Source: Bryobacter aggregatus MPL3
Lineage (GTDB): Bacteria > Acidobacteriota > Terriglobia > Bryobacterales > Bryobacteraceae
Length of the DNA stretch: 64,000 nt
Reading direction: 5' to 3'
Assembly: GCF_000702445.1 (NCBI RefSeq)
Contig: NZ_JNIF01000004.1
Span: forward strand, 1 to 64,000
The notes under the pieces: generated by a model
The model's database searches: none
What the model was told of the DNA's origin: nothing
Seen by the model: only the letters and a program-made list of their open reading frames with translations
Made by a program: the position numbers and the translations under genes
Shown here: positions 1 through 31,158 of the stretch, piece by piece
Numbering within the stretch: the first letter of the stretch is position 1
How the letters are laid out: each line of letters begins with the position of its first letter

Positions 1-47
1 TATGAAGGCCGGGCCCTGGCAGATGCAAGTACTCAAGAGGCCACGGA

Positions 48-485
48 TTGGCAGCAGACGCGATTCGTGAAGAGCTTGCAAAGCAGTTCCCGGACATTGC
101 CGTCATTAACAAGGAGTATTCCTTCTGGAAGAATGTTGATCGCGTCGTTGGGGATACATTACTGCGGCGCGAGGGGCAGGCGAAACCACTTGGGCAGAAA
201 CTTGCTGCTGGCGCTGGCGCAATTGTAGGTGGCGCGAAGGCTGGACCGAAGGGCGCGATTCTTGGCGGCAAAGTTGGCCAACTCTTTGAGGCAACCGTAA
301 GTAGCCCAGGGTGGGCAACAGCCAGCGCAGTCCTGAAAGACAGATTGGCAAAGGCTCTTGGGAGTGGCAGTTCGGCCCAGATTGATTACTACCTTCGTCG
401 GATCGGGAGTGGCGCGCGAGCTACTGCCGTTGCTGGCGCGAAGTCGGATGGAGCCAACTTGAGGACGGAAGGACAAGACAAATGA
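48..485 (+). CDS. Small hypothetical protein of the integrated element (start uncertain)
   Basis: This 145-aa reading frame begins with a TTG and has no good ribosome site. The frame is open from base 6, just after a stop, so the start cannot lie outside the window. The middle is rich in Gly and Ala (about residues 48-80, with repeated GG and GxxxG spacing), like a glycine-zipper or membrane-associated hairpin. I do not recognise a family. Its stop overlaps an ATG at 482 (ATGA), which suggests translational coupling to the degraded gene that follows. It lies within the mobile region that ends at tRNA-Arg. The function is unknown. Confidence 0.4.
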   Translation: MAADAIREELAKQFPDIAVINKEYSFWKNVDRVVGDTLLRREGQAKPLGQKLAAGAGAIVGGAKAGPKGAILGGKVGQLFEATVSSPGWATASAVLKDRLAKALGSGSSAQIDYYLRRIGSGARATAVAGAKSDGANLRTEGQDK

Positions 486-1060
486 GTCGACGATCGATAA
501 TGGCACCGCCAAAAGCGGAGCCGTCTCATCCTGAAGTAGTCCAAGCTGGACGATAACTGTAGACTCAAGAACCGGTGCCAGACGGCGGAAAAGTTGCTCC
601 TCGACATCCCGGAATCATTTGGAATTCGAAATCTGGACGTGGCTCAGTATCTCTATGGACAAACATTCAGTGCGCTTGCAACCGTGGGGCGAAGTGATCC
701 GGCAGACATCGAAGAGCTCGATAAGGTCGCATTGTCGGTTCGACTGTTAGTGGAGATGAAACCCGAAGGCGTGCTGGAGGCGATGCTCTGCATCAAATGA
801 TTGCGACCCATGATGCGGCGATGGCGATGATGCAGGCAGTTCCCCACAGGGATGGCGGGATTCACAGGCAGGAGTCAGGATTGACCAACGGAGCTAAGTT
901 GATGAAGCTCTTCGCGGAGCAAGTCGAGGTCTATCAGAAGTTGAAGGGCCAAGGCACTCAGCAGCGAGTCACCGTCGAGCACGTTCACATCCATGAGGGC
1001 GGTCAGGCAATGGTAGGCAATTTTGAGCAGCCTATCGGGGGCGGGGGAGGGGTGACAAGG
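482..1060 (+). pseudogene. Frameshifted mobile-element hypothetical gene ('GGQAxVGN' family)
   Basis: Three reading frames together spell one protein. An opening piece runs from the ATG at 482. A second piece, readable from about 540 to 800, contains LLLDIPESFG and ends EGVLEAML. A third, in the next frame from about 785, reads HQMIATHDAAMAMMQ and then QRVTVEHVHIHEGGQAMVGN. That order matches a family I know from islands in proteobacteria, in which a 'LEGML..QM.A.H.AAM' block precedes 'QKVTVEHV.V..GGQAIVGN'. The frame changes near 540 and near 785-797, and the natural stop near 1053 is out of frame after a G-rich run. A decayed gene is the simplest reading. Two overlapping short genes is the alternative. 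Confidence 0.5.
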
Positions 1061-1064
1061 AGAA

Positions 1065-1375
1065 ATGAACGAAACACCCTACGAAACCCGGAATGGCTGG
1101 CTCAAGAACGGAAATCGACCCGGTCAGCCAAATCTATCCCCGCGATGCGGCGCGCGGACTCGGGCTGGTCGGTCATGCCGTTCTCCTGCAATGCTCAATG
1201 GCGTTGCCGGATACATGGAGGACTTAGCACGGGCGCGCGGACTGAAGATGGCAAACAGCGGATCCGCCGAGCGGTGACAACGCACGGCCTACGGACGAAA
1301 GAATCGCTTCGGCAGCGGGGAATGGTTCGGCGGCTACTTTCTGAGTGGGCGCACCTACAAAAACTGCTTCAGTGA
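1065..1375 (+). pseudogene. Frameshifted HGGxSTGxRT-motif small protein
   Basis: The frame that starts at the ATG at 1065, just after an AAGGAG, encodes a Pro/Gly-rich start, then RCGARTRAGRSCRSPAMLNG. It then loses similarity. The neighbouring frame continues at exactly that point with CRIHGGLSTGARTEDG and a basic tail to a stop at 1375. The joined product matches the small 'CGA.TR.G..C..PAM.NGRCR.HGG.STGPRT' proteins that travel with mobile DNA. One missing base around 1202 (in NGRCR) explains the shift. The biochemical role of the family is not known to me. A sequencing error would restore the gene. Confidence 0.6.
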
Positions 1376-1399
1376 TGAGTGCTTGCAATGCGGGTCACG

Positions 1400-1648
1400 T
1401 CAGATGTCGAAGCGCCGCTCCAACTCTGCCCAGGAACGCCAGGGTTCACGCCAGTTCTTCTGCTTCGCCAACCAGGCATAGTAGCTCCCTCCGGTATCGG
1501 CGGGTAGATTCATCCACTGGTCGTAGAATGGGCCTTCGGATTTGGCCATTGGTCCAGCCCTTCCGATATCTGGCGCGCTTCCGAATCCATGCCATCCCAG
1601 AACCATTGACGCTACAAGTAGAAAAAGCACGACGAGTTTGCCTAACAC
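1400..1648 (-). CDS. Small membrane-anchored hypothetical protein
   Basis: This 82-aa protein starts with GTG, with GGAG about eight bases upstream. Residues 2-20 (LGKLVVLFLLVASMVLGW) form a hydrophobic helix or signal anchor. The rest is short, polar and rich in Trp and aromatic residues (WMNLP, YYAWL, WREPWRSW). I do not recognise a family. The clear split into a hydrophobic N-terminus and a soluble tail, and the lack of a better frame on the other strand, favour a real gene. It could be an island cargo gene. Confidence 0.42.
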   Translation of the reverse strand: MLGKLVVLFLLVASMVLGWHGFGSAPDIGRAGPMAKSEGPFYDQWMNLPADTGGSYYAWLAKQKNWREPWRSWAELERRFDI

Positions 1649-1711
1649 TGGTGGCTCCAGTCTGATTCAGGCTGTTCTGTCATGGTGCGGTGACCGTACA
1701 GTCGCGTGCTC

Positions 1712-1948
1712 CTAAGAGTTGCCGGTCGCATCGCTCGTTGCCTTCGAGGGCTTCTTTCGGGCGCGGACCTCTCCAGTAGCTTTCTTTTTTGGCGTTGCAG
1801 GACGTTTCGCTTCACGGGCGGCCACGGCGCGTTTCGCGCGCTCGCTTCGCTGCTCTGGGGTCATCGTCTCCAGCGAGCGCTTTCCGCCAATCTTGCCGCC
1901 TCTGGAGCCCATCTCTCGCATCACTGCGGAGATTGTCTTCTCGTCCAT
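1712..1948 (-). CDS. Small basic protein (GGKxGG motif), divergent to the recombinase
   Basis: This 78-aa protein is strongly basic. Its N-terminal half reads MREMGSRGGKIGGKRSLETM followed by a TPEQRSERAKRAVAAREAK helix, and its Lys/Ala-rich tail resembles nucleoid-type DNA-binding tails. Short proteins with 'GSKGGK.GGK.R...MTPEER...A..A' are common in Acidobacteria and their relatives, but I know of no proven function. It is transcribed away from the serine recombinase from a promoter containing one of the two palindromic operators. The start codon lies about six bases after the predicted -10 box, so the message would be leaderless. It could be the regulator of this switch, but that is inference only. 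Confidence 0.62.
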   Translation of the reverse strand: MDEKTISAVMREMGSRGGKIGGKRSLETMTPEQRSERAKRAVAAREAKRPATPKKKATGEVRARKKPSKATSDATGNS

Positions 1949-1954
1949 GACCCC

Positions 1955-1983
1955 AGTCTAAAGCGCTTTTGATTTGAATACAA
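1955..1983 (-). promoter_or_regulatory. Promoter of the small basic protein with operator (site O1)
   Basis: On the minus strand TTGTAT (1983-1978), a 17-bp spacer and TAGACT (1960-1955) form a fair sigma70-like promoter. The -10 box ends six bases before the ATG at 1948, so transcription should begin at or next to the start codon. The imperfect 16-bp palindrome TCTAAAGCGCTTTTGA occupies 1957-1972, covering most of the spacer and part of the -10 box. It has one mismatch from perfect symmetry. A protein bound there would block RNA polymerase. Confidence 0.5.
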
Positions 1984-1992
1984 TTTTTGCCA

Positions 1993-2020
1993 TTGACATC
2001 TAAAGCGCTTTAGATAGAAT
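1993..2020 (+). promoter_or_regulatory. Promoter of the serine recombinase with operator in the spacer (site O2)
   Basis: TTGACA at 1993-1998 and TAGAAT at 2015-2020 are separated by exactly 16 bp. Those 16 bp are the perfect palindrome TCTAAAGCGCTTTAGA (1999-2014). The -10 box ends six bases before the recombinase ATG at 2027 and no Shine-Dalgarno is present, so a leaderless message is predicted. The centres of O1 and O2 are 42 bp apart, four helical turns, which would allow cooperative binding or a small loop. Confidence 0.6.
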
Positions 2021-2026
2021 CTAAGC

Positions 2027-2692
2027 ATGAAAGTGATCGGCTATATCCGGGTGAGTACAGACAAGCAGGCTGACAAGGGCGTGTCGCTAGAGGCACAAGA
2101 AGCCAAGATCCGCGCAATGGCTGCCGTGCAGGATTTGGAAGTCTCAGAGATCATCGTCGACGGCGGTGAATCGGCTAAGAGTCTCAGCCGTCCAGGGATG
2201 GACCGATTGCTTTCAATCGTGGATCGCGGAGAGGTTGATTGCGTGATCATTGCAAAGCTCGATCGGCTAACGCGTTCCGTAAAGGATCTGGCCACGCTTC
2301 TCGAACGTTTTCAAAAGCGAAACGTCGGGCTTGTAAGCGTATCCGAGAGCCTGGATACGAAGAGCGCGGCTGGTCGACTCGTGCTCAACATCATGGTTTC
2401 TGTCAGCCAGTGGGAACGGGAAGTGATTGGAGAGCGAACCCGTGATGCGATGCGTCACAAGAAGTTGAAAGGCGAGAGAATTGGCGCGATTCCGTTTGGC
2501 TCGCGCCTGGCGGCAGATGGCAAACACCTCGAAGAGGATGAACGCGAGCAGGCAATGCTCCAGCGGATCAGGAACCTGAAGGCCGCAGGGCTATCACTTC
2601 GCGCGATCGCCGCTGAGCTTAACTCGCAAGGATTCCGCACTCGCAAGGGTACGGCCTGGCAGCATACCTTCGTTGCGGCGATGGCCGCCTGA
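2027..2692 (+). CDS. Serine recombinase / resolvase family protein
   Basis: This 221-aa protein is a site-specific recombinase of the resolvase-invertase family. The N-terminal catalytic domain (residues 1-145) begins MKVIGYIRVSTDKQ with the nucleophile at Ser10. It continues with VIIAKLDRLTRSVKDL around residues 72-87 and the GRLVLNIMVSVSQWEREVIGERT helix. A recombinase-type winged region follows (GIPFG-like IGAIPFG, then LSLRAIAAELNSQGFRTRKGTAW). It is close to the usual size of a short resolvase and much smaller than large phage serine integrases. It is expressed from the operator-containing divergent promoter. A role in resolution or inversion within the element is likely. No recombination site was identified. 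Confidence 0.92.
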   Translation: MKVIGYIRVSTDKQADKGVSLEAQEAKIRAMAAVQDLEVSEIIVDGGESAKSLSRPGMDRLLSIVDRGEVDCVIIAKLDRLTRSVKDLATLLERFQKRNVGLVSVSESLDTKSAAGRLVLNIMVSVSQWEREVIGERTRDAMRHKKLKGERIGAIPFGSRLAADGKHLEEDEREQAMLQRIRNLKAAGLSLRAIAAELNSQGFRTRKGTAWQHTFVAAMAA

Positions 2693-2817
2693 TGCGTGCC
2701 TTCAACTGAACGACGAAATGCACCCTACTCAAGTTTTCAGTCCTGCCGGGAGTGCATTGCCTACACCGGCAAATATTCACATCCAAATTAAAGACCAACA
2801 AATCCAGAGAGAGACTA

Positions 2818-3909
2818 ATGAGCCAACAGCAAAAGGGCGGACTTTTCCTTCATTTCAATCCCGAGTGTGAAGACTGGGCGACTAACCACCTATCCAAACG
2901 GGAGGCCGATTTCCTCATGGCTGCCTACCAAACCTATGGCCTATGCAAGGAGGACCGCGCAACAGACCGGCATGAGAACCTTATCGTCTCCCTTGTCGAA
3001 GCCTTTCAATCGGGCGAATTGAACGCAACATTTATCAGAAGGAACTTTGCCGAGTTCTGCCAGCTTGAGAAGATCGCGGTCGAACACGAATCAGAGACCC
3101 ATCAGCCAGCACGCGAGAGTGCAGGGCGAGGCGGCGTACTGTGGGAAGTCGGGGGAAGACGGTGGGACCTGAACGACAAGGTATTGCAGCTTTGCTTCGC
3201 CTCAAATTGGGCTTATCTTAGATGCACCAACGAAGCGAGTGCTGAGGAACACTTCATCCTCGATATGCTGACTACTTTTGAAGCACGACGGCTTGACCCG
3301 AACATGGTCGCCTCGCTCTACGGTCAGTACGTCAATCGGTGCAACCTGAGAGATGAAACACAAGATCCAATCCCTCTCTTCCTAGTTCCGGAGGATTCTC
3401 AGCGCGCCACCGGTGCGCTATCCAGCAGTGATATCTCAAATCTCTTTGCCGCGACGGTCGGCTCCGGGGCTGGACAGTTGAAAGAAAGCTCTGGACGCTG
3501 TGAGCAATTGAGTACTGCTGAACTTGTAGTTCTCAGAAATGTGCTTGATACATTGCGTACCGAGGGTTCAGCGGAGTTGAGTGACGAGGGTGACAAGAGC
3601 GACTGGGGATTCTTGATTTCGCGCAGCGGAATTGTTCAGTTGGCGAGTGCTGAGGTCATGGGACATCTGCGCGCTGCATTAGATGCGGTATGCTCCGACC
3701 GCGGATGCTTAACGCCGATGGAGGAGCTCATCAGTAACCTGCTTTCCTTTTATTCTGATGGTCGGCTTGATACAAGGCGCATTGAATGGGCATTCAAGGA
3801 GTACCGTTCTAATGCGAGGCTACAACAGGAAACCCTCCAAACACTCGCGAAGACCTGCCCCCAAATCTTGCGTCAGGCGCTTGCCGAGGTCGATGCGGTG
3901 ACCGTTTGA
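2818..3909 (+). CDS. Unknown 363-aa protein coupled to the integrase
   Basis: I chose the ATG at 2818 because AGAGAGAG lies just upstream and the longer GTG start at 2752 adds an unlikely leader. No family is recognised. The protein is soluble and mostly helical, with no signal or membrane segment. It has an acidic, Ser-rich middle (about 190-270) and a helical C-terminal part (SAEVMGHLRAALDAVCSDRG, ISNLLSFYSDGRLDTRRIEWAFKEY). The stop codon shares one base with the integrase ATG (TGATG), so the two are probably made together. A recombination accessory factor is one possibility and element cargo is another. Confidence 0.7.
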   Translation: MSQQQKGGLFLHFNPECEDWATNHLSKREADFLMAAYQTYGLCKEDRATDRHENLIVSLVEAFQSGELNATFIRRNFAEFCQLEKIAVEHESETHQPARESAGRGGVLWEVGGRRWDLNDKVLQLCFASNWAYLRCTNEASAEEHFILDMLTTFEARRLDPNMVASLYGQYVNRCNLRDETQDPIPLFLVPEDSQRATGALSSSDISNLFAATVGSGAGQLKESSGRCEQLSTAELVVLRNVLDTLRTEGSAELSDEGDKSDWGFLISRSGIVQLASAEVMGHLRAALDAVCSDRGCLTPMEELISNLLSFYSDGRLDTRRIEWAFKEYRSNARLQQETLQTLAKTCPQILRQALAEVDAVTV

Positions 3910-5093
3910 TGAGTGTCTATAAGCGAGGCAACACCCAGTGGTACCGCTTCGTTTGGGAGGGCCGGGAAATCCGGCTCTCCACGAAGCAGGGGAATAAGCG
4001 CATTGCGGAGCAGATGGAGGCTGCGCACCGTACGAGTCTTGCAAAGGGTGAAGTCGGTCTCCGTACCGCCAAAAAATCGCCCGTTCTGCGTGAGTTCGCA
4101 GAAGGCGAGTTCCTCGCCCATATCCGTTCCCACTTTGGGGAGAAGCCTGCCACGATCCAATACTACGAAGCTGGCGTGAAGATGCTGATAGGCTTCAAGC
4201 CGCTTGCAGGACTTCGCTTAGACGAGGTCAGCGCTGAAACCGTGAACAAGTTTGTGCAGCACCTTAAGGGCTTGAATTTTGAGGTGTCGACAATGAACCG
4301 AAAGCTGCAGGTGCTCCGACGTGTGTTCAAGCTTGCACGAGAGTGGGAACGCTCTGCTCGGGCTCTTCCGATCGTGAGGATGCTGCCTGGTGAGAAGCGC
4401 CGGGAACGCGTTCTCTCTTTGGAAGAGGAACAGTCCTACCTGAAAGCGGCCGCAGATCTTGGCGACGGCATGATTTCCGCGCACGAAAGAGCTTGCAAAG
4501 GAATTCGCGCGACGCAGAGAGGGCTGGAGCCGATCAAGCCGCGAGATCCATACCTACTCCATCACTTGGCTGTCGTTCTCGCAGATTGCGCACTGAGGCC
4601 TGAGGAAGCGTATCGATTGAGATGGTCGGAATACCGCGATGGCTCCCTATATGTTGCTCATGGAAAGACTGCAAATGCACGTCGCGTCATTCCTGTGACG
4701 GAGCGAGTGAAAGCAGTACTCGACATGCGCACTCGTTCAGAGACTAGTGAATGGGTGTTTGCCGCGCCGACGAAATCCGGCCACGTCGAACAGTCAACCG
4801 TAAAGAAGCAACACGCCAAGGCTTGCAAGGCCGCGAAGGTCGTTCCGTTTGTCTTGTACACCTTCCGGCACACCCGACTTACGAGGTGGGCTGAAGTGAT
4901 GGACCCCTACACGCTGGCGCACTTGGCGGGGCATTCAGACTTCAGTACAACGCGGCGCTATGTGCATCCGAGGGAAGAAACGGTACGGGAAGCGATGAGA
5001 AAGGCCGAAGAGGTGCAGACTAGGCACAAATCCGGGCACAGTGCCAAGTCGGAGGAGTTTGGGGCTGAGAGGGATGGGGAGCTAATCAACTGA
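3909..5093 (+). CDS. Tyrosine recombinase / phage-type integrase
   Basis: This 394-aa integrase catalyses strand exchange between the element and the chromosome. The N-terminus (MSVYKRGNTQWYRFVWEGREIRLSTKQ) is an arm-type DNA-binding domain. A SAM-like core-binding domain spans about 65-160. The catalytic domain shows Arg in CALRPEEAYRLRW (about residue 228), HTR in YTFRHTRLTRW, His in LAGHSDFSTT and the nucleophile Tyr in RRYVHP (about 350). All expected catalytic residues are present, so it looks active. The start ATG overlaps the previous stop. The gene ends 17 bases from the CCA end of tRNA-Arg, the usual position for an integrase at its attachment site. Confidence 0.95.
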   Translation: MSVYKRGNTQWYRFVWEGREIRLSTKQGNKRIAEQMEAAHRTSLAKGEVGLRTAKKSPVLREFAEGEFLAHIRSHFGEKPATIQYYEAGVKMLIGFKPLAGLRLDEVSAETVNKFVQHLKGLNFEVSTMNRKLQVLRRVFKLAREWERSARALPIVRMLPGEKRRERVLSLEEEQSYLKAAADLGDGMISAHERACKGIRATQRGLEPIKPRDPYLLHHLAVVLADCALRPEEAYRLRWSEYRDGSLYVAHGKTANARRVIPVTERVKAVLDMRTRSETSEWVFAAPTKSGHVEQSTVKKQHAKACKAAKVVPFVLYTFRHTRLTRWAEVMDPYTLAHLAGHSDFSTTRRYVHPREETVREAMRKAEEVQTRHKSGHSAKSEEFGAERDGELIN

Positions 5094-5109
5094 AGGGGAA
5101 GGGGTTGAA

Positions 5110-5186
5110 TGGTGCACCCGGAGAGATTCGAACTCCCGACCCTTTGGTTCGAAGCCAAATGCTCTATCCAACTGAGCTACAGGTGC
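5110..5186 (-). tRNA. tRNA-Arg(TCG), probable attachment site
   Basis: On the minus strand a 74-base cloverleaf runs from 5186 to 5113, followed by an encoded CCA (5112-5110). The acceptor arms GCACCTG and CGGGTGC pair with one G-T wobble. The D-arm reads AGCTCAGTTGGATAGAGC. The anticodon loop CTTCGAA (5154-5148) gives anticodon TCG. The T-arm contains GTTCGAATC. The gene is intact, and its 3' end faces the integrase, as expected when an element has inserted and rebuilt the tRNA end. Confidence 0.95.
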
Positions 5187-5348
5187 ACGTAGATTTAATA
5201 TAGCGAAGTGTTTGGACTTCGGCCAGCGAATCTCCATTGCGTTCGATTTCGCTGTTGCGATCCCAGAAACGGACAACACTTTTGATTGCCTCTCTCCTCC
5301 TTTCAGTGACTTAGCTTGGTGACGAAGGTGCATGTGCAAGCAACCACA

Positions 5349-7790
5349 ATGTTTGCCCAAGAATTTCGCCATTCTCTCCGAGCACTCCAGCGTAGTTTTG
5401 GGTTTGCTTTGACTGCCGTACTGACCCTTGCCATTGGTATTGGGACCAGTACGGCCATGTTCATGATCGTTGATTCCGTACTCCTGCAGCCGCTGCGCTA
5501 TCGGGATAGCGGACGGTTGGTCGCAGTCTGGGAACAGGTTCAGACACTAGCCTTGGGTCCCATTGGTCCGAATCCGCGCCATGTGGATTTCTGGACGAAG
5601 CGTTCGAAAACGATCGAATCCTTTGCCTTGGTGCAGCAGGCTTCCATCGGTCTCTCCATTCCCGGAGCGGATCATCCGCAGTTGGTCGGCGTGGTGAGTG
5701 CTTCTGCCGAACTCTTCAATACCCTGCAGGTGAAGCCCCTGCTCGGACATGGCTTTCTGCCCGAGCAGGGATTGGAGGCCCGGGATTCTGTGGCGGTGTT
5801 GAGCTACTCTCTTTGGCAGAACTCTTTTGGTGGTGATCCTCAGATCATCGGGAAGACCGTCAGGCTTGGCGAGGTTTCGAGGCAGGTGGTGGGCGTGCTT
5901 CCCCCTCAGTTTCACTTCCCAAACCGGAATGCACTCCGCGCCTTCCAATCGAAGCAAACAGCCAGCCACGTGCCGGAGCCGTCCATTTTCGTCCCCGTTG
6001 CTTTTGATTGGAAGGGATTCAGCTGGAACGGCGAATATGGGAACTGGGTGGCGCTGGCCCGGCTGCGGACGGGAGTCCGGATGCAGACCGCACAATCGGA
6101 ACTGGATGCGATCGAGGCACAGTTGGTTGCCTCGATCCCGACGAACGAGAGGGATAGCCGCCCGGGGGCCCTACGGGCTTTCCTGCAACCTTTACAGCAT
6201 GCCGTCGTTGGCGAGGTGAGTATGGGACTGTGGTTGTTGCTAGCTGCTGTTCTTGGTTTGTTGGGAATTGGCTGCGTGAATCTGGCCAACGCGCAGATGG
6301 CAAGAAGTTTGACACGATCGCGCGAAGCCAGTGTCCGCGCTGCACTTGGAGCGACTCGCTGGAGCTTGGTGAGAAGTGTCTTGCTCGAGAATCTGATCCT
6401 GGCGAGTGCGGGAGGACTTCTCGGAGTTTGGTTCGCACAGGAAGCTTTGGCGTTGTTGCGCTTGTCCTCGCCTGTCGATCTACCTCGTCTCGCAGAGGTT
6501 TCACTGAATGGCACGGTGCTCCTGGTGTCGGCGGGTTTGATGATGGGCGCTGCTGTCTTGTTCAGCGTCCTGCCTGCGTTGCGAGTCTTGCGTGGAGATC
6601 TCCAAGTGAGTGCTCGAGCTACGGGGAGCCGGCAGACTGCAGGTCTTCATCGGTGGTTGATTGGCGCCCAGGTTTTCGGTTGCACGGTGTTGCTCCTAGT
6701 GACGGGATTCTTTACGAAAAGCTTGATGCAGGTGATGACGCAGGAAAAGGGGTTTGAAACTGAGCAAGTGGCCGTTGCGCAGATCAATATTTCGGCCCAG
6801 ACTTATGGGAGCCCGAAGAGCCGTGTTGCGCTGATCGATTCGATTGTGGCGAATCTCCGCGAGGTTCCTGGAGTTCAGGTGGCCAGCTTTGTTTCGGCAA
6901 TGCCGCTCGAGGGGGAGTCCTGGATTGAATCGGTGCGCCGTGACGATCGACCGACGGTGCAGCAACCGCTGATGAATTTGCGCTGGGTGGGGCCGGGCTA
7001 TTTTGAGACCATGCGTCACAAGCTGGTCGCCGGACGCTTCTTCGAGGAGCGGGATCGGGACGCGCACAGTGTGATCCTGTCGGAAGCGCAGGCGCGTTCG
7101 CTGTGGCCAGACTCGAGCCCGATCGGCGGGCTGCTGACAACGCAGGGACGGCAGTTCACTGTAATCGGTGTGGTGGCGGATTCGCGGATCTCTTCCTTGA
7201 AGGCTCCGCCCACTAGAACCGCTTATCTCCACTATCGGGACCGCAGTGGGGCGACTTTATACTTTGTCGCGAGAGGAGTCCAGCAGCCGAGTGCACTGGT
7301 TCCAGAAATGCGTGCGGCCATCTGGCGTCACTCGCCTGATTTAACGATTGTCCGGTCGATGACCTTGGAGGAGCAAGTGCGGGAGTCGCTTGCGACCGAG
7401 CGCTTTCAGACCTTTGTTCTGATGAGTTTTGGTGGCTGTGCGCTGCTGCTGGCGATGTTGGGGATTTATGGAATTTTGAGTTACTCGGTGGCGTCGCATC
7501 GGCAGGAGATTGGGATTCGGATGGCGCTCGGTGCGGATCGCCGTCAGATTTATCGGGATACGCTGGGCGAGGTGTTCACGCCGGTCTTCGTTGGACTGGG
7601 GTGCGGGCTGATTGCCAGCCTGGGTCTGGTGATGAGTTTGAAGCGCCTGATCTATGGCGTGAAGCCCTTCGATCCTGCGCTTCTGCTGGCGGTGAGTGCT
7701 CTGTTCCTAGTTGCTGCTGGAGTTGCCGGATACTTGCCGGCGAGACGGGCGGCGTCTGTCGATCCGATGGAGGCGCTGCGGATGGAGTAG
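5349..7790 (+). CDS. MacB/FtsX-like permease of the acidobacterial ADOP type
   Basis: This 813-aa inner-membrane protein has the ABC-permease FtsX/MacB fold twice and no ATPase gene beside it, as in the 'acidobacterial duplicated orphan permease' group. The first unit has a helix at FGFALTAVLTLAIGIGTSTAMFMIVDSVLLQPL (about 17-50), a periplasmic domain (to about 285) and three helices (to about 435). The second repeats the plan with a TM at LIGAQVFGCTVLLLV, another periplasmic domain and the closing helices with GCALLLAMLGIYGILSYSV, ending in LPARRAASVDPMEALR. I prefer the ATG at 5349 over the earlier TTG. The exported substrate is unknown. A bidirectional terminator follows. Confidence 0.9.
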   Translation: MFAQEFRHSLRALQRSFGFALTAVLTLAIGIGTSTAMFMIVDSVLLQPLRYRDSGRLVAVWEQVQTLALGPIGPNPRHVDFWTKRSKTIESFALVQQASIGLSIPGADHPQLVGVVSASAELFNTLQVKPLLGHGFLPEQGLEARDSVAVLSYSLWQNSFGGDPQIIGKTVRLGEVSRQVVGVLPPQFHFPNRNALRAFQSKQTASHVPEPSIFVPVAFDWKGFSWNGEYGNWVALARLRTGVRMQTAQSELDAIEAQLVASIPTNERDSRPGALRAFLQPLQHAVVGEVSMGLWLLLAAVLGLLGIGCVNLANAQMARSLTRSREASVRAALGATRWSLVRSVLLENLILASAGGLLGVWFAQEALALLRLSSPVDLPRLAEVSLNGTVLLVSAGLMMGAAVLFSVLPALRVLRGDLQVSARATGSRQTAGLHRWLIGAQVFGCTVLLLVTGFFTKSLMQVMTQEKGFETEQVAVAQINISAQTYGSPKSRVALIDSIVANLREVPGVQVASFVSAMPLEGESWIESVRRDDRPTVQQPLMNLRWVGPGYFETMRHKLVAGRFFEERDRDAHSVILSEAQARSLWPDSSPIGGLLTTQGRQFTVIGVVADSRISSLKAPPTRTAYLHYRDRSGATLYFVARGVQQPSALVPEMRAAIWRHSPDLTIVRSMTLEEQVRESLATERFQTFVLMSFGGCALLLAMLGIYGILSYSVASHRQEIGIRMALGADRRQIYRDTLGEVFTPVFVGLGCGLIASLGLVMSLKRLIYGVKPFDPALLLAVSALFLVAAGVAGYLPARRAASVDPMEALRME

Positions 7791-10845: not shown

Positions 10846-11442
10846 GTGCGGGAGCGCTTTTTTGCCTGGCTGATGCGCCTCGCCAGCAAGTATCATGAGC
10901 CGCTGGTTGCGGATCGCAAGCGCGTGCTGCTCGGGCAGCTTTCCGGTCAGGTTATTGAGATTGGCCCTGGCAATGGTGTCAATTTGCAGTATTTGCCGGC
11001 GGGCGTCGCCTGGACGGGCTTTGAGCCCAACGCCATTCTGGCTGCGGAGATTGCGGTGCCACCCGGCGGCAAACTGTGGGCGCAGGAGTTCTGTGGCGGA
11101 GAGGAGCGATTCGATGGCGCGATCTCGACGCTTGTCCTTTGCAGTGTCGCGGATCTCGATGCGACGCTGCGTCAACTCTTTGCGAGCCTGCGTCCTGGTG
11201 GAACTTTTATTTTTCTCGAGCATGTTGCGGCTGCCGCTGCAACGCCGCAACGGCGTAGCCAAGATCGCTGGCAGCCTCTCTGGTCTTGTTGTGCCGGTGG
11301 TTGCCAGCCGAATCGCGACATCGAGCAAAGCATTCGGGCGGCAGGTTTTGTCATCGAACAAATTGATCGCTTCCATTTGAATTTCTCGTTAGCCTCCCCT
11401 CACATTGCAGGTGTGGCCAGACGACCTGCGCTGCTACCTTAA
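10846..11442 (+). CDS. Class I SAM-dependent methyltransferase (TMT1/METTL7-like)
   Basis: This 198-aa protein starts with GTG one base after the cupin gene's stop, so the two are probably co-translated. The Rossmann-fold SAM-binding motif I is VIEIGPGNGVNLQYLP (about 37-52), motif II contains TGFEPNA, and motif IV/post-I reads FDGAISTLVLCSV. The late RPGGTFIFLEHV and the WQPLWSCCAGGCQPNRDIEQSIRAAGF segment match the METTL7/TMT1-type and phospholipid-type small methyltransferases ('W..L..GC...R'). The substrate cannot be read from the sequence; a thiol or lipid acceptor would fit the family. Confidence 0.85.
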   Translation: MRERFFAWLMRLASKYHEPLVADRKRVLLGQLSGQVIEIGPGNGVNLQYLPAGVAWTGFEPNAILAAEIAVPPGGKLWAQEFCGGEERFDGAISTLVLCSVADLDATLRQLFASLRPGGTFIFLEHVAAAAATPQRRSQDRWQPLWSCCAGGCQPNRDIEQSIRAAGFVIEQIDRFHLNFSLASPHIAGVARRPALLP

Positions 11443-11534
11443 AAGAACGCGGCAGTCTTGTCTGCTCCGCGAACCTCGTCTCACCGTCTGAGCGCTCTTT
11501 CCCCAGTCCGGATCCCCTGAGGAGCGCAACCCAA

Positions 11535-12953
11535 ATGGCAGCAATGTTCTGGCCTGTGGTCATTTTTATGGCCATATCTCTCTGTATTGGTCTCTACACC
11601 TATACTCAGGTCCGTGGTTCCAGTGAGCGGTTTACCGTTTGCGGCAAGTCGATGCCTTTCTTCATTGTCGGCACGGCGCTGATCGCGCAGTCTGTGGATG
11701 GCAACGCCACGCTTGGCAATGTTTCACTGGTTTGGTCGACAAATATCTGGGGTGGCATCTTAATTCCCTTGGGCCTTGCCACCAGCTTGATTGTTGTGGG
11801 CCGCTTTCTCGCCGCCCCACTGAACGAGATGGATCTGATGACCTTGCCGGAATTCTTCTACCGCCGCTATGGCAAGAAGACCGAACTGTTGGTCAGCATC
11901 ATCACACTGACCTGTTTCACGATTCTGATTGCCGGAAATCTGAGTGCTGTGGCCTGGATTCTGAGTGTTGTGAGTGGCATGAGCTACGGCACTTCTCTCT
12001 TGATCGCCACTACGGTGATCGTCACTTACACCATGGCCGGTGGCCTTTTTTCTGCCATCTGGACCGACATCTTTCAGGTTCATGTGGCCTTGATCGGATT
12101 CATCGCCGGCGCCGCCTGGCTGGTGTATCACTACGGAACCGCGCCACTCGATGCCGCGATCGCTGCCGGCAAGCTTGACCTCAAGCCGCTGAGCCAGCTT
12201 TCGGGTGGGGCGCTTCCAAACTGGGCGAACTTTATTTCGCTGGCTATTGGGAATACGATGGCGCTTGATTTTATGGAGCGCGTCTTCAGCGCAAAGTCGG
12301 GACGCACGGCGAAGAACGCTTGCTACTATGCCGCGATCTTGACCTTGATCGTTGGTGGCTGCGCTACGCTCATGGGCCTCTACGCTGTCTCGCTGGTTCC
12401 GAATGCCGAGAATCCGCGCATGGTGTTGCCCACTCTTGCCAACGGCATTTTGCCCTTTGGCCTGGGTGTGATGGTGTTCATCGGCGTGCTGGGCGCGTCG
12501 ATGTCGTCCTCGAACGGCGGCATGATTGTGATGAGCGTTGTGGCCGCCCGCAACCTGTTTGAACGCTACCGCGCGGTGCCGGTGACCGACAGCCAGATGC
12601 TGATGTGGTCGCGCTTGATGGCGATTCCGACCGCGATTCTGGCTGGCCTGACCGCTTACTTCAAGCCTGAGCCGGGAATCTTGCTGGTGATCGCATTCGA
12701 CATTGTGTTTGCCGGATGTGTGGTGCCTCTCATTTTTGGCGTTCACTCGAAAAAGGCAACTGCTGAGGCTGCGGTTACCGCAATTGTCACCGGCACTGTC
12801 TCTCGCCTGATCGCTCATTTTGCAACCCCGCCGGAATGGGCGGGGCTCGATACGCTGCTTCCGCCGGTATTGAGCTTGATTGCCTTTGTCACTGTAGTGA
12901 AACTGGCCGCGCCGAAAGAATTGCCGCAGGCCGTAGTCGCACATGGAGATTAA
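11535..12953 (+). CDS. Sodium:solute symporter (SSS family)
   Basis: This 472-aa protein has about 13 membrane helices and is of usual SSS length. Family landmarks are the GKSMPFFIVGTALIAQSVDGNATLGN helix 2 region, TLPEFFYRRYGKKTE after helix 3, VTYTMAGGLFSAIWTDIFQV (helix 6 signature, about 162-180) and MVFIGVLGASMSSSNGGMIVMSVVAARNLFERY, a well-conserved helix 9 motif with the Ser residues thought to bind sodium. The substrate could be a sugar, amino acid or carboxylate and cannot be set from sequence. The last 11 bases overlap the next gene's start, so it is coupled to the secreted beta-propeller. Confidence 0.9.
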   Translation: MAAMFWPVVIFMAISLCIGLYTYTQVRGSSERFTVCGKSMPFFIVGTALIAQSVDGNATLGNVSLVWSTNIWGGILIPLGLATSLIVVGRFLAAPLNEMDLMTLPEFFYRRYGKKTELLVSIITLTCFTILIAGNLSAVAWILSVVSGMSYGTSLLIATTVIVTYTMAGGLFSAIWTDIFQVHVALIGFIAGAAWLVYHYGTAPLDAAIAAGKLDLKPLSQLSGGALPNWANFISLAIGNTMALDFMERVFSAKSGRTAKNACYYAAILTLIVGGCATLMGLYAVSLVPNAENPRMVLPTLANGILPFGLGVMVFIGVLGASMSSSNGGMIVMSVVAARNLFERYRAVPVTDSQMLMWSRLMAIPTAILAGLTAYFKPEPGILLVIAFDIVFAGCVVPLIFGVHSKKATAEAAVTAIVTGTVSRLIAHFATPPEWAGLDTLLPPVLSLIAFVTVVKLAAPKELPQAVVAHGD

Positions 12954-31126: not shown

Positions 31127-31158
31127 AAAGAGGAGGAGCCGGGGCTCCTCCTCTTTTC
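31127..31158. terminator. Bidirectional terminator after the multi-PAS kinase
   Basis: AAAGAGGAGGAGCC and GGCTCCTCCTCTTT form a nearly perfect stem with a very short loop. It has TTTT at its plus-strand end and a matching T-rich side on the minus strand. It separates the convergent histidine kinase and molybdenum hydroxylase genes. Confidence 0.85.

Follow-up and report, generated by a model that had tools for sequence, protein, structure and literature searches.

In the resolvase/res regions of the Tn3 family, divergent promoters are overlapped by paired symmetric sites beside the recombinase gene, and TnpR-type resolvases repress their own promoter at res. The window analysed here, a stretch of 64,000 nucleotides at the start of contig C4 of Bryobacter aggregatus MPL3, likewise holds divergent promoters, paired symmetric sites and an adjoining recombinase gene. 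Unlike those of the Tn3 family, its sites follow a small protein, denoted as the KGG type, and such sites also occur beside integrase and ArdC genes.

Arc, CopG and omega are small autorepressors. RelB, a ribbon-helix-helix protein, is described as a further one in the accessible text of PMC2812701. The KGG protein resembles all of these in its small size, in the inverted-repeat operators over its own promoter and in the dimer that is expected, whereas it differs from them in having no Pfam, NCBIfam or PDB match and in a half-site spacing that varies with protein length. The ribbon-helix-helix arrangement, a strand at the N-terminus and then two helices, was not found in it either, as the model of the 78-aa protein is a two-helix hairpin with no strand.

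Leaderless genes average 13.3% in three acidobacterial genomes, where the bacterial signal lies about 12 bp upstream (PMC3160421, accessible text). The genes described below also carry TANNNT about 12 bp upstream of the start; whereas the accessible text of PMC3160421 gives a genome-wide statistic, the motif is here a conserved feature of the KGG family and its target.

The proposed shared control region

The control region and the two genes that it separates consist of the following features.

1712 to 1948, minus strand: 78-aa KGG-type protein, the proposed operator-binding autorepressor (open reading frame, relatives and structure model)
1955 to 1960, minus strand: -10 box TAGACT of the 78-aa gene, followed by six bases and the ATG at 1948-1946
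1957 to 1972, no strand: candidate left operator, TCTAAAGCGCTTTTGA, with one mismatch, over the -10 box of the 78-aa gene
1978 to 1983, minus strand: weak -35-like TTGTAT of the 78-aa gene, found by eye, with 17 bp to its -10 box
1993 to 1998, plus strand: -35 box TTGACA of the recombinase promoter (direct reading and promoter scan)
1999 to 2014, no strand: candidate right operator, TCTAAAGCGCTTTAGA, an exact fill of the recombinase -35/-10 spacer
2015 to 2020, plus strand: -10 box TAGAAT of the recombinase promoter, followed by six bases and the ATG at 2027
2027 to 2692, plus strand: serine recombinase of 221 aa, with a Resolvase N-terminal domain and the start of a Recombinase domain; the proposed target of the switch

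The palindrome TCTAAAGCGCTTTAGA is perfect over 1999-2014 and reaches 18 bp (1998-2015) when the A/T at 1998 and 2015 are counted. Direct reading agrees with the first-pass annotation of this DNA that the palindrome fills the recombinase spacer between TTGACA and TAGAAT, and it confirmed three further observations made there, namely a one-mismatch copy over the opposite -10 region, a distance of 42 bp between the two centres, and -10 boxes that lie six bases from the ATG on both strands. In the promoter scan, the recombinase promoter agreed with the consensus at 11 of 12 positions and had a spacer of 16 bp. The minus-strand promoter (TTGTAT-17-TAGACT) is weak, with TTGTAT agreeing at 3 of 6 consensus positions, and it was absent from the output of the same scan. 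With up to three mismatches allowed, the palindrome has two matches in the 64 kb, where 0.13 are expected, and two matches were reached in none of 100 shuffles.

Based on this arrangement and on the comparison of loci below, it is likely that the divergent pair shares one control region, in which the 78-aa KGG protein would bind both operators and repress the recombinase as well as itself. The statement of the first-pass annotation that the window has no obvious matching repressor gene is wrong or incomplete: the best candidate for the repressor is the 78-aa protein itself. The protein, probably as a dimer, would bind both inverted repeats. At the right operator, the strong leaderless promoter of the recombinase would be blocked from within its -35/-10 spacer. 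At the left operator, the protein would block its own leaderless promoter at the -10 box, and it is this position over its own -10 box that makes it a proposed autorepressor. The recombinase would thereby be kept low once the element has settled, while entry into a cell without the KGG protein would allow a burst of recombinase that is then shut off. We infer the direct binding, the dimer, repression rather than activation and the burst: binding from the comparison, and repression from where the operators lie.

Distribution of the sites among relatives

Relatives of the recombinase came from 6 of 151 genomes at E <= 1e-40 (own genome included) and from 13 viral-contig loci, with a further 60 genome-contig loci and, from a separate search, 80 relatives kept out of 239; upstream regions were compared for 62 entries of at least 46% recombinase identity. 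The named relatives near the window type are mostly Acidobacteriota, with L051 labelled Hydrogenedentota. At ten loci (the window, L016, L017, L018, L019, L024, L051, L054, L057 and L058, with near-duplicate upstream DNA in L024 and L057), the recombinase start is separated by 77-81 bp from a divergent small gene, and both operators occur at the same places as in the window. On the left, the operator lies over the -10 box of the small gene, and the one on the right occupies the whole -35/-10 spacer, which is 17 bp in the relatives as read by eye versus 16 bp in the window; the -35 hexamers were also assigned by eye, and some are far from the consensus. Between the -10 box and the recombinase start, L017 and L019 have seven bases and the other eight loci have six. 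A compact variant occurs in L029 and in both genes of L030/L110, where the genes are 42 bp apart and share one operator. The first-pass annotation had proposed a compact switch tying the recombinase to the small basic protein through twin operators, and the ten loci together with the single-operator variant back this proposal.

The right operator of the relatives is an imperfect palindrome that reads, with some variation, CTAAA-GGGGG-TTTAG over 15 bp or CTAANA-GGGGG-TNTTAG over 17 bp, and their left operators have CCGG/CCCG-type cores. The window site, CTAAA-GCGC-TTTAG (14 bp), belongs to the same series. Judging by these sequences, the candidate operator need not be a perfect palindrome, as the sites of the relatives, built on CTAA..TTAG, differ from it in length and have G-rich cores.

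The distribution of the sites also bears on whether the twin palindromes are a res-type site, which the serine recombinase binds for recombination and through which it represses its own promoter. Their place just upstream of a serine recombinase and their distance of 42 bp, which is 4.0 turns at 10.5 bp, would suit such a site. However, the site was not kept with the recombinase whatever its neighbours. Recombinase identity was at least 60%, and the upstream DNA long enough, at 26 loci (related loci counted singly, the near-duplicates L024 and L057 included). The site is present in 11 of the 12 with a KGG neighbour versus 2 of the 14 without, the other 12 having none (Fisher p=2e-4). L027, where the small protein has a different N-terminus, is the sole KGG-neighbour locus without a site; L033 was scored as without a KGG neighbour, though a KGG gene lies elsewhere in its locus. 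The recombinases of L019 and L057 are identical over 223/223 aa (641/669 nt), yet the two loci carry operators of 15 bp and 17 bp that differ in sequence, and their KGG proteins differ by one four-residue unit and substitutions. L024, which shares genome G076 with L019, encodes a recombinase that matches that of L019 at 116/116 residues up to the end of the L024 contig, and its operator is of the 17-bp type. In L055, around position 6000, a 70%-identical recombinase stands beside an unrelated 88-aa divergent gene, with an unrelated palindrome, TTTGTGATATCACAAA, in the promoter region; from its sequence, this is an apparent regulator swap. A by-eye guess that the 88-aa protein is ribbon-helix-helix was dropped, as Pfam found no match. 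Considering the L019/L057 pair, the counts by neighbour and the contrast with L055, the operator goes with the small protein. Moreover, KGG genes with twin sites are divergent to a tyrosine integrase (L198) and to an ArdC gene (L204). As such, a res-type site is quite unlikely.

The identical TCTAAAGCGCTTTAGA is found in L206, beside a window-type protein from another genus. The neighbours of KGG genes include serine recombinases, tyrosine integrases, transposase-like genes and ArdC genes. Among the divergent ones, Pfam supports Phage_integrase in L198, ArdcN in L204 and Resolvase with HTH_7 in L253; the transposase-like neighbour of L212 is a DDE match below the Pfam cut-off, and the remaining neighbours were named by eye. 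The sites of L212 have CGT..ACG arms (by eye). With a ten-member KGG profile, 49 of 300 related genomes had matches; a 19-member profile hit 67 of 237 genomes within the family and 26 of the 396 sampled across the phylum (own genome included).

Paired sites were tested across the KGG family in 81 loci, which are 87 minus two of low profile score, one with short upstream DNA and three near-duplicates. The left site is much closer to the right site of its own locus than to the right sites found elsewhere (z=10.8, n=81, 0/5000 permutations); in the controls, the same similarity test gave z=0.24 for far-upstream DNA and z=-1.17 for the start of the coding sequence. In the same set, 29 of 81 KGG genes have a TANNNT that ends precisely six bases ahead of the start, and no other distance is found in more than four. 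The baseline is 5 of 152 ORFs with TANNNT at 6 nt, a figure that is probably too low because first-ATG starts were used. The position in KGG genes agrees with the leaderless signal given in the accessible text of PMC3160421. A -10 box about 6 nt from the start codon is thus found in the window and in relatives, and the recurring architecture strengthens the earlier reading of both promoters as leaderless; these sequence comparisons support leaderless expression of the KGG genes and the recombinase, which would begin at or near the start codon.

The promoter spacers also speak to an alternative, MerR-like role for the small protein, that of an activator bound in the spacer of the recombinase promoter. 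In its favour, the operator fills the spacer in relatives (by eye). MerR-type promoter spacers are 19-20 bp, whereas an operator-filled spacer of that length was not found, the spacers being of normal length (16 bp here and 17 bp by eye in relatives). Because the spacers are normal and the window promoter is near consensus, activation is not needed; furthermore, the other operator covers a -10 box. MerR-like activation is therefore very unlikely.

Other KGG genes, many of them with an MPKRTR-like N-terminus, are preceded by a different conserved motif, GGTAGTGGGTCNNTTTGAA. It is exact in 18 of 334 loci, some of which are overlapping duplicates. The motif was noted in L217, L218, L221 (1098 on the plus and 2259 on the minus strand), L232, L233, L291, L318 (826 plus, 1320 minus) and others. 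In L221, with the exact sequence, and in L318, where each copy has two mismatches, it forms an inverted pair whose members are separated by 0.5-1.2 kb, which resembles the terminal repeats of a small mobile element.

Protein length and operator spacing

The model of the 78-aa protein was built with AlphaFold2 from 37 sequences hand-chosen from 55. It reached a pLDDT of at least 90 in 42 of 78 residues, with helices at 3-28 and 31-48, and is good for about residues 1-48; the tail had a pLDDT of 57-59, and an earlier model from 10 sequences was poor (pLDDT 67). The Gly-Gly stretch is modelled inside helix 1. Using this model, Foldseek gave no PDB match and nothing better than E 2.7 among viral models, and the searches by sequence and model recognised no known DNA-binding fold in the KGG protein.

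To describe protein length, we counted residues starting at the Gly that opens the Gly-rich stretch and ending at the Thr/Ser of an MTPE-like motif. This parsed 120 of 128 proteins, with lengths of 12 (14 proteins), 16 (93) and 20 (6) and seven others; by eye, four of the seven were mis-parsed, L048 was unclear, and L236 (28) and L324 (17) were real. Operators were located by a strict scan that was blind to the protein and sought pairs of CTWA..TWAG sites whose spacers are of the same length and which together have no more than one mismatch. Such a pair was present in 19 of 128 loci, against 0.25 expected from base shuffles, and absent in the other 109. The spacers were 4, 4 and 5 bp for 12 residues; 6 bp (six loci) and 7 bp (four) for 16 residues, together with one of 12 bp (L202), which was judged false and became 7 in a relaxed scan; and 9 bp in 5/5 loci for 20 residues. 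With exceptions, each added four-residue Gly-Gly unit therefore corresponds to about 2 bp more between the half-sites, or 1 bp per half. In a few loci (L057, L325), the strict scan picks one site off the expected place with the same spacer; in L057, the right site at the expected place has one mismatch.

The relaxed scan found 31 loci, of which 27 were kept (L194, L191, L330 and L057 fell to similarity or ambiguity limits), and gave a Spearman correlation of 0.76 with the outliers included and p=5e-6. As the loci are of common descent, the p-values given here overstate independence and this one is only indicative; all 20-residue loci may stem from a single KGG lineage. Single sites with up to one mismatch turned up about as often as chance predicts (72 loci of 128 versus 63.6 in shuffles), and that scan was given no weight as evidence. 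The strongest single case is L019 against L057, and L017 against L051, whose recombinases are sister with 98/94 support, repeats it.

When the proteins are split into two types, a division drawn after the data were seen, those with F/Y..G before the Gly stretch mostly have spacers of 5, 7 and 9 bp, with exceptions at 6 (L253, L226, L229) and 8 (L272, whose right site also fits 7), whereas the VM..MG-like proteins, including that of the window, have 4 and 6 bp, apart from 3-bp sites in L258 and L319 that are probably false. Two loci do not fit the ruler, namely L250 (16 residues, an 8-bp single site) and L326 (7 by eye despite a window-type protein). In the case of L236 (28 residues, extra Gly-Gly units), no site of the predicted length was found in its upstream DNA. 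Arm sequence (CTWA versus CGY) and the residue before the first Gly did not separate into classes in a very permissive test. As a lead seen by eye, FVKMG-type proteins go with CGT..ACG arms.

Across the family, the four-residue Gly-Gly unit in helix 1 thus appears to behave like a ruler, in which each four-residue helical turn would shift each half-site outwards by 1 bp. We infer that the recognition face would stay nearly in phase, because four helical residues turn by about 40 degrees beyond a full turn and one base pair by about 34. An insert of four residues amounts to slightly more than one helical turn, and this hints at a way for spacing to shift by small increments. Mobile elements would swap protein-plus-operator cassettes in front of mobility genes that are unrelated, thereby altering regulatory specificity. 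We put the chances at about even for the wider proposal that KGG is a new DNA-binding family of Gly-Gly-faced helical hairpins, in which length encodes operator length and cassettes are exchanged while the recombinase is kept.

In the databases, the nearest relations are partial. In PHROGs, phrog_2384 was weakly matched by 11 of 19 KGG members (best E 1.4e-7) and phrog_12127 by 4 of 19 (1.1e-6). The match takes in a short part of the profile rather than its whole length, positions 7-43 of 338 for the one KGG member whose range on phrog_2384 was given, whereas these profiles of 338 and 414 positions represent longer proteins with no function, operator or regulation given. The KGG repeat of Pfam (PF10685, a stress-induced bacterial acidophilic repeat motif) is also Gly-Gly-Lys-rich, but it was matched by 1 of 19 members at E 0.044, below the curated cut-off and far from significant, and by none of 10 members in another Pfam search. 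In titles and abstract openings of the open-access papers listed, no description of the KGG family or of a link between protein length and operator length was found.

Another idea is that the small protein is an antitoxin with a small downstream ORF as its partner and that the operators serve ordinary toxin-antitoxin autoregulation. A small, basic, autoregulated protein would fit, and on contig C3 the gene is followed by an 83-aa ORF (11392-11643) whose N-terminus looks hydrophobic by eye; however, the match to BrnA antitoxin is weak (3 of 10 members, best E 0.14), the 83-aa ORF has no Pfam match and the divergent target here is a recombinase, which makes the antitoxin reading highly improbable.

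The integrated element and wider meaning

With up to two mismatches, the palindrome occurs at six distinct places in 5.75 Mb, all within three pairs. Three genomic copies of the pair were considered and rejected: C3:1-6810 is a 97.3% inverted copy of C3:6987-13714, a noisy fold-back at the start of contig C3, and window positions 1-6208 equal C3:13045-6837 at 99.4%, so the three pairs are one locus. The genome search for further copies that the first-pass annotation had proposed thus returned this locus alone, and the random genome-wide occurrence that it had named as contrary evidence was not seen, all matches being the promoter pair of one locus. At up to one mismatch, no copy was found in 7 other genomes of the genus. 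The early window also shows frameshifts relative to the cleaner C3 copy, for example in ORF 1400-1648, and because of these the ORFs of this part are unreliable.

The locus belongs to an integrated element of about 13.5 kb (C3:7853-21457), the remainder of which lies on C3. Two features of the window give its context.

3906 to 5093, plus strand: tyrosine integrase of the element
5110 to 5186, minus strand: tRNA-Arg(TCG), the probable attachment site

A 62-bp copy (92%) of part of the tRNA-Arg region at C3:21396-21457 is, by sequence, the probable other end. Beside this far repeat, the 3' remnant of a second integrase (75% identity, C3:21451-21594) suggests an older or tandem insertion. Among the other proteins of the element, Pfam identified a DnaB-type helicase and a Bro-N protein (223 aa); two proteins of about 500 aa have no convincing family. 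A Pfam search of 17 element proteins (the 83-aa ORF at C3:19890-20141 left out) found no classical repressor among them; an HTH_17-like protein of 92 aa fell just below the cut-off (26.5 vs 27.0 bits), and it and the Bro-N protein are possible further regulators. Elsewhere in the window, a 30-bp near-perfect inverted repeat lies at 31127-31156 (93% self-match).

LacI-like operators often have a AAAGCGCTTT core. Control by a LacI-like host regulator or another regulator of the element, which the resemblance that we take the AAAGCGCTTT core of the window site to have and the Bro-N and HTH_17-like proteins might suggest, is hardly tenable, given that the sites belong to one locus at up to two mismatches in 5.75 Mb, that the 12-bp core at up to one mismatch has 13 matches versus 14 for a reversed-pattern control, and that site length and arms change with the linked protein.

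Taken together, small autorepressors that act at paired operators, including those of recombinase genes, are a known kind of regulator, while the KGG family proposed for this role has no Pfam, NCBIfam or PDB entry and no function in PHROGs. The family seems to be used before several unrelated genes in mobile elements of Acidobacteriota. Its natural series of protein and operator lengths raises the question of whether adding helix turns can set the spacing of a binding site. The loci offer candidates for the control of mobile elements in a phylum where such control is little known, as well as strong candidates for leaderless transcripts.
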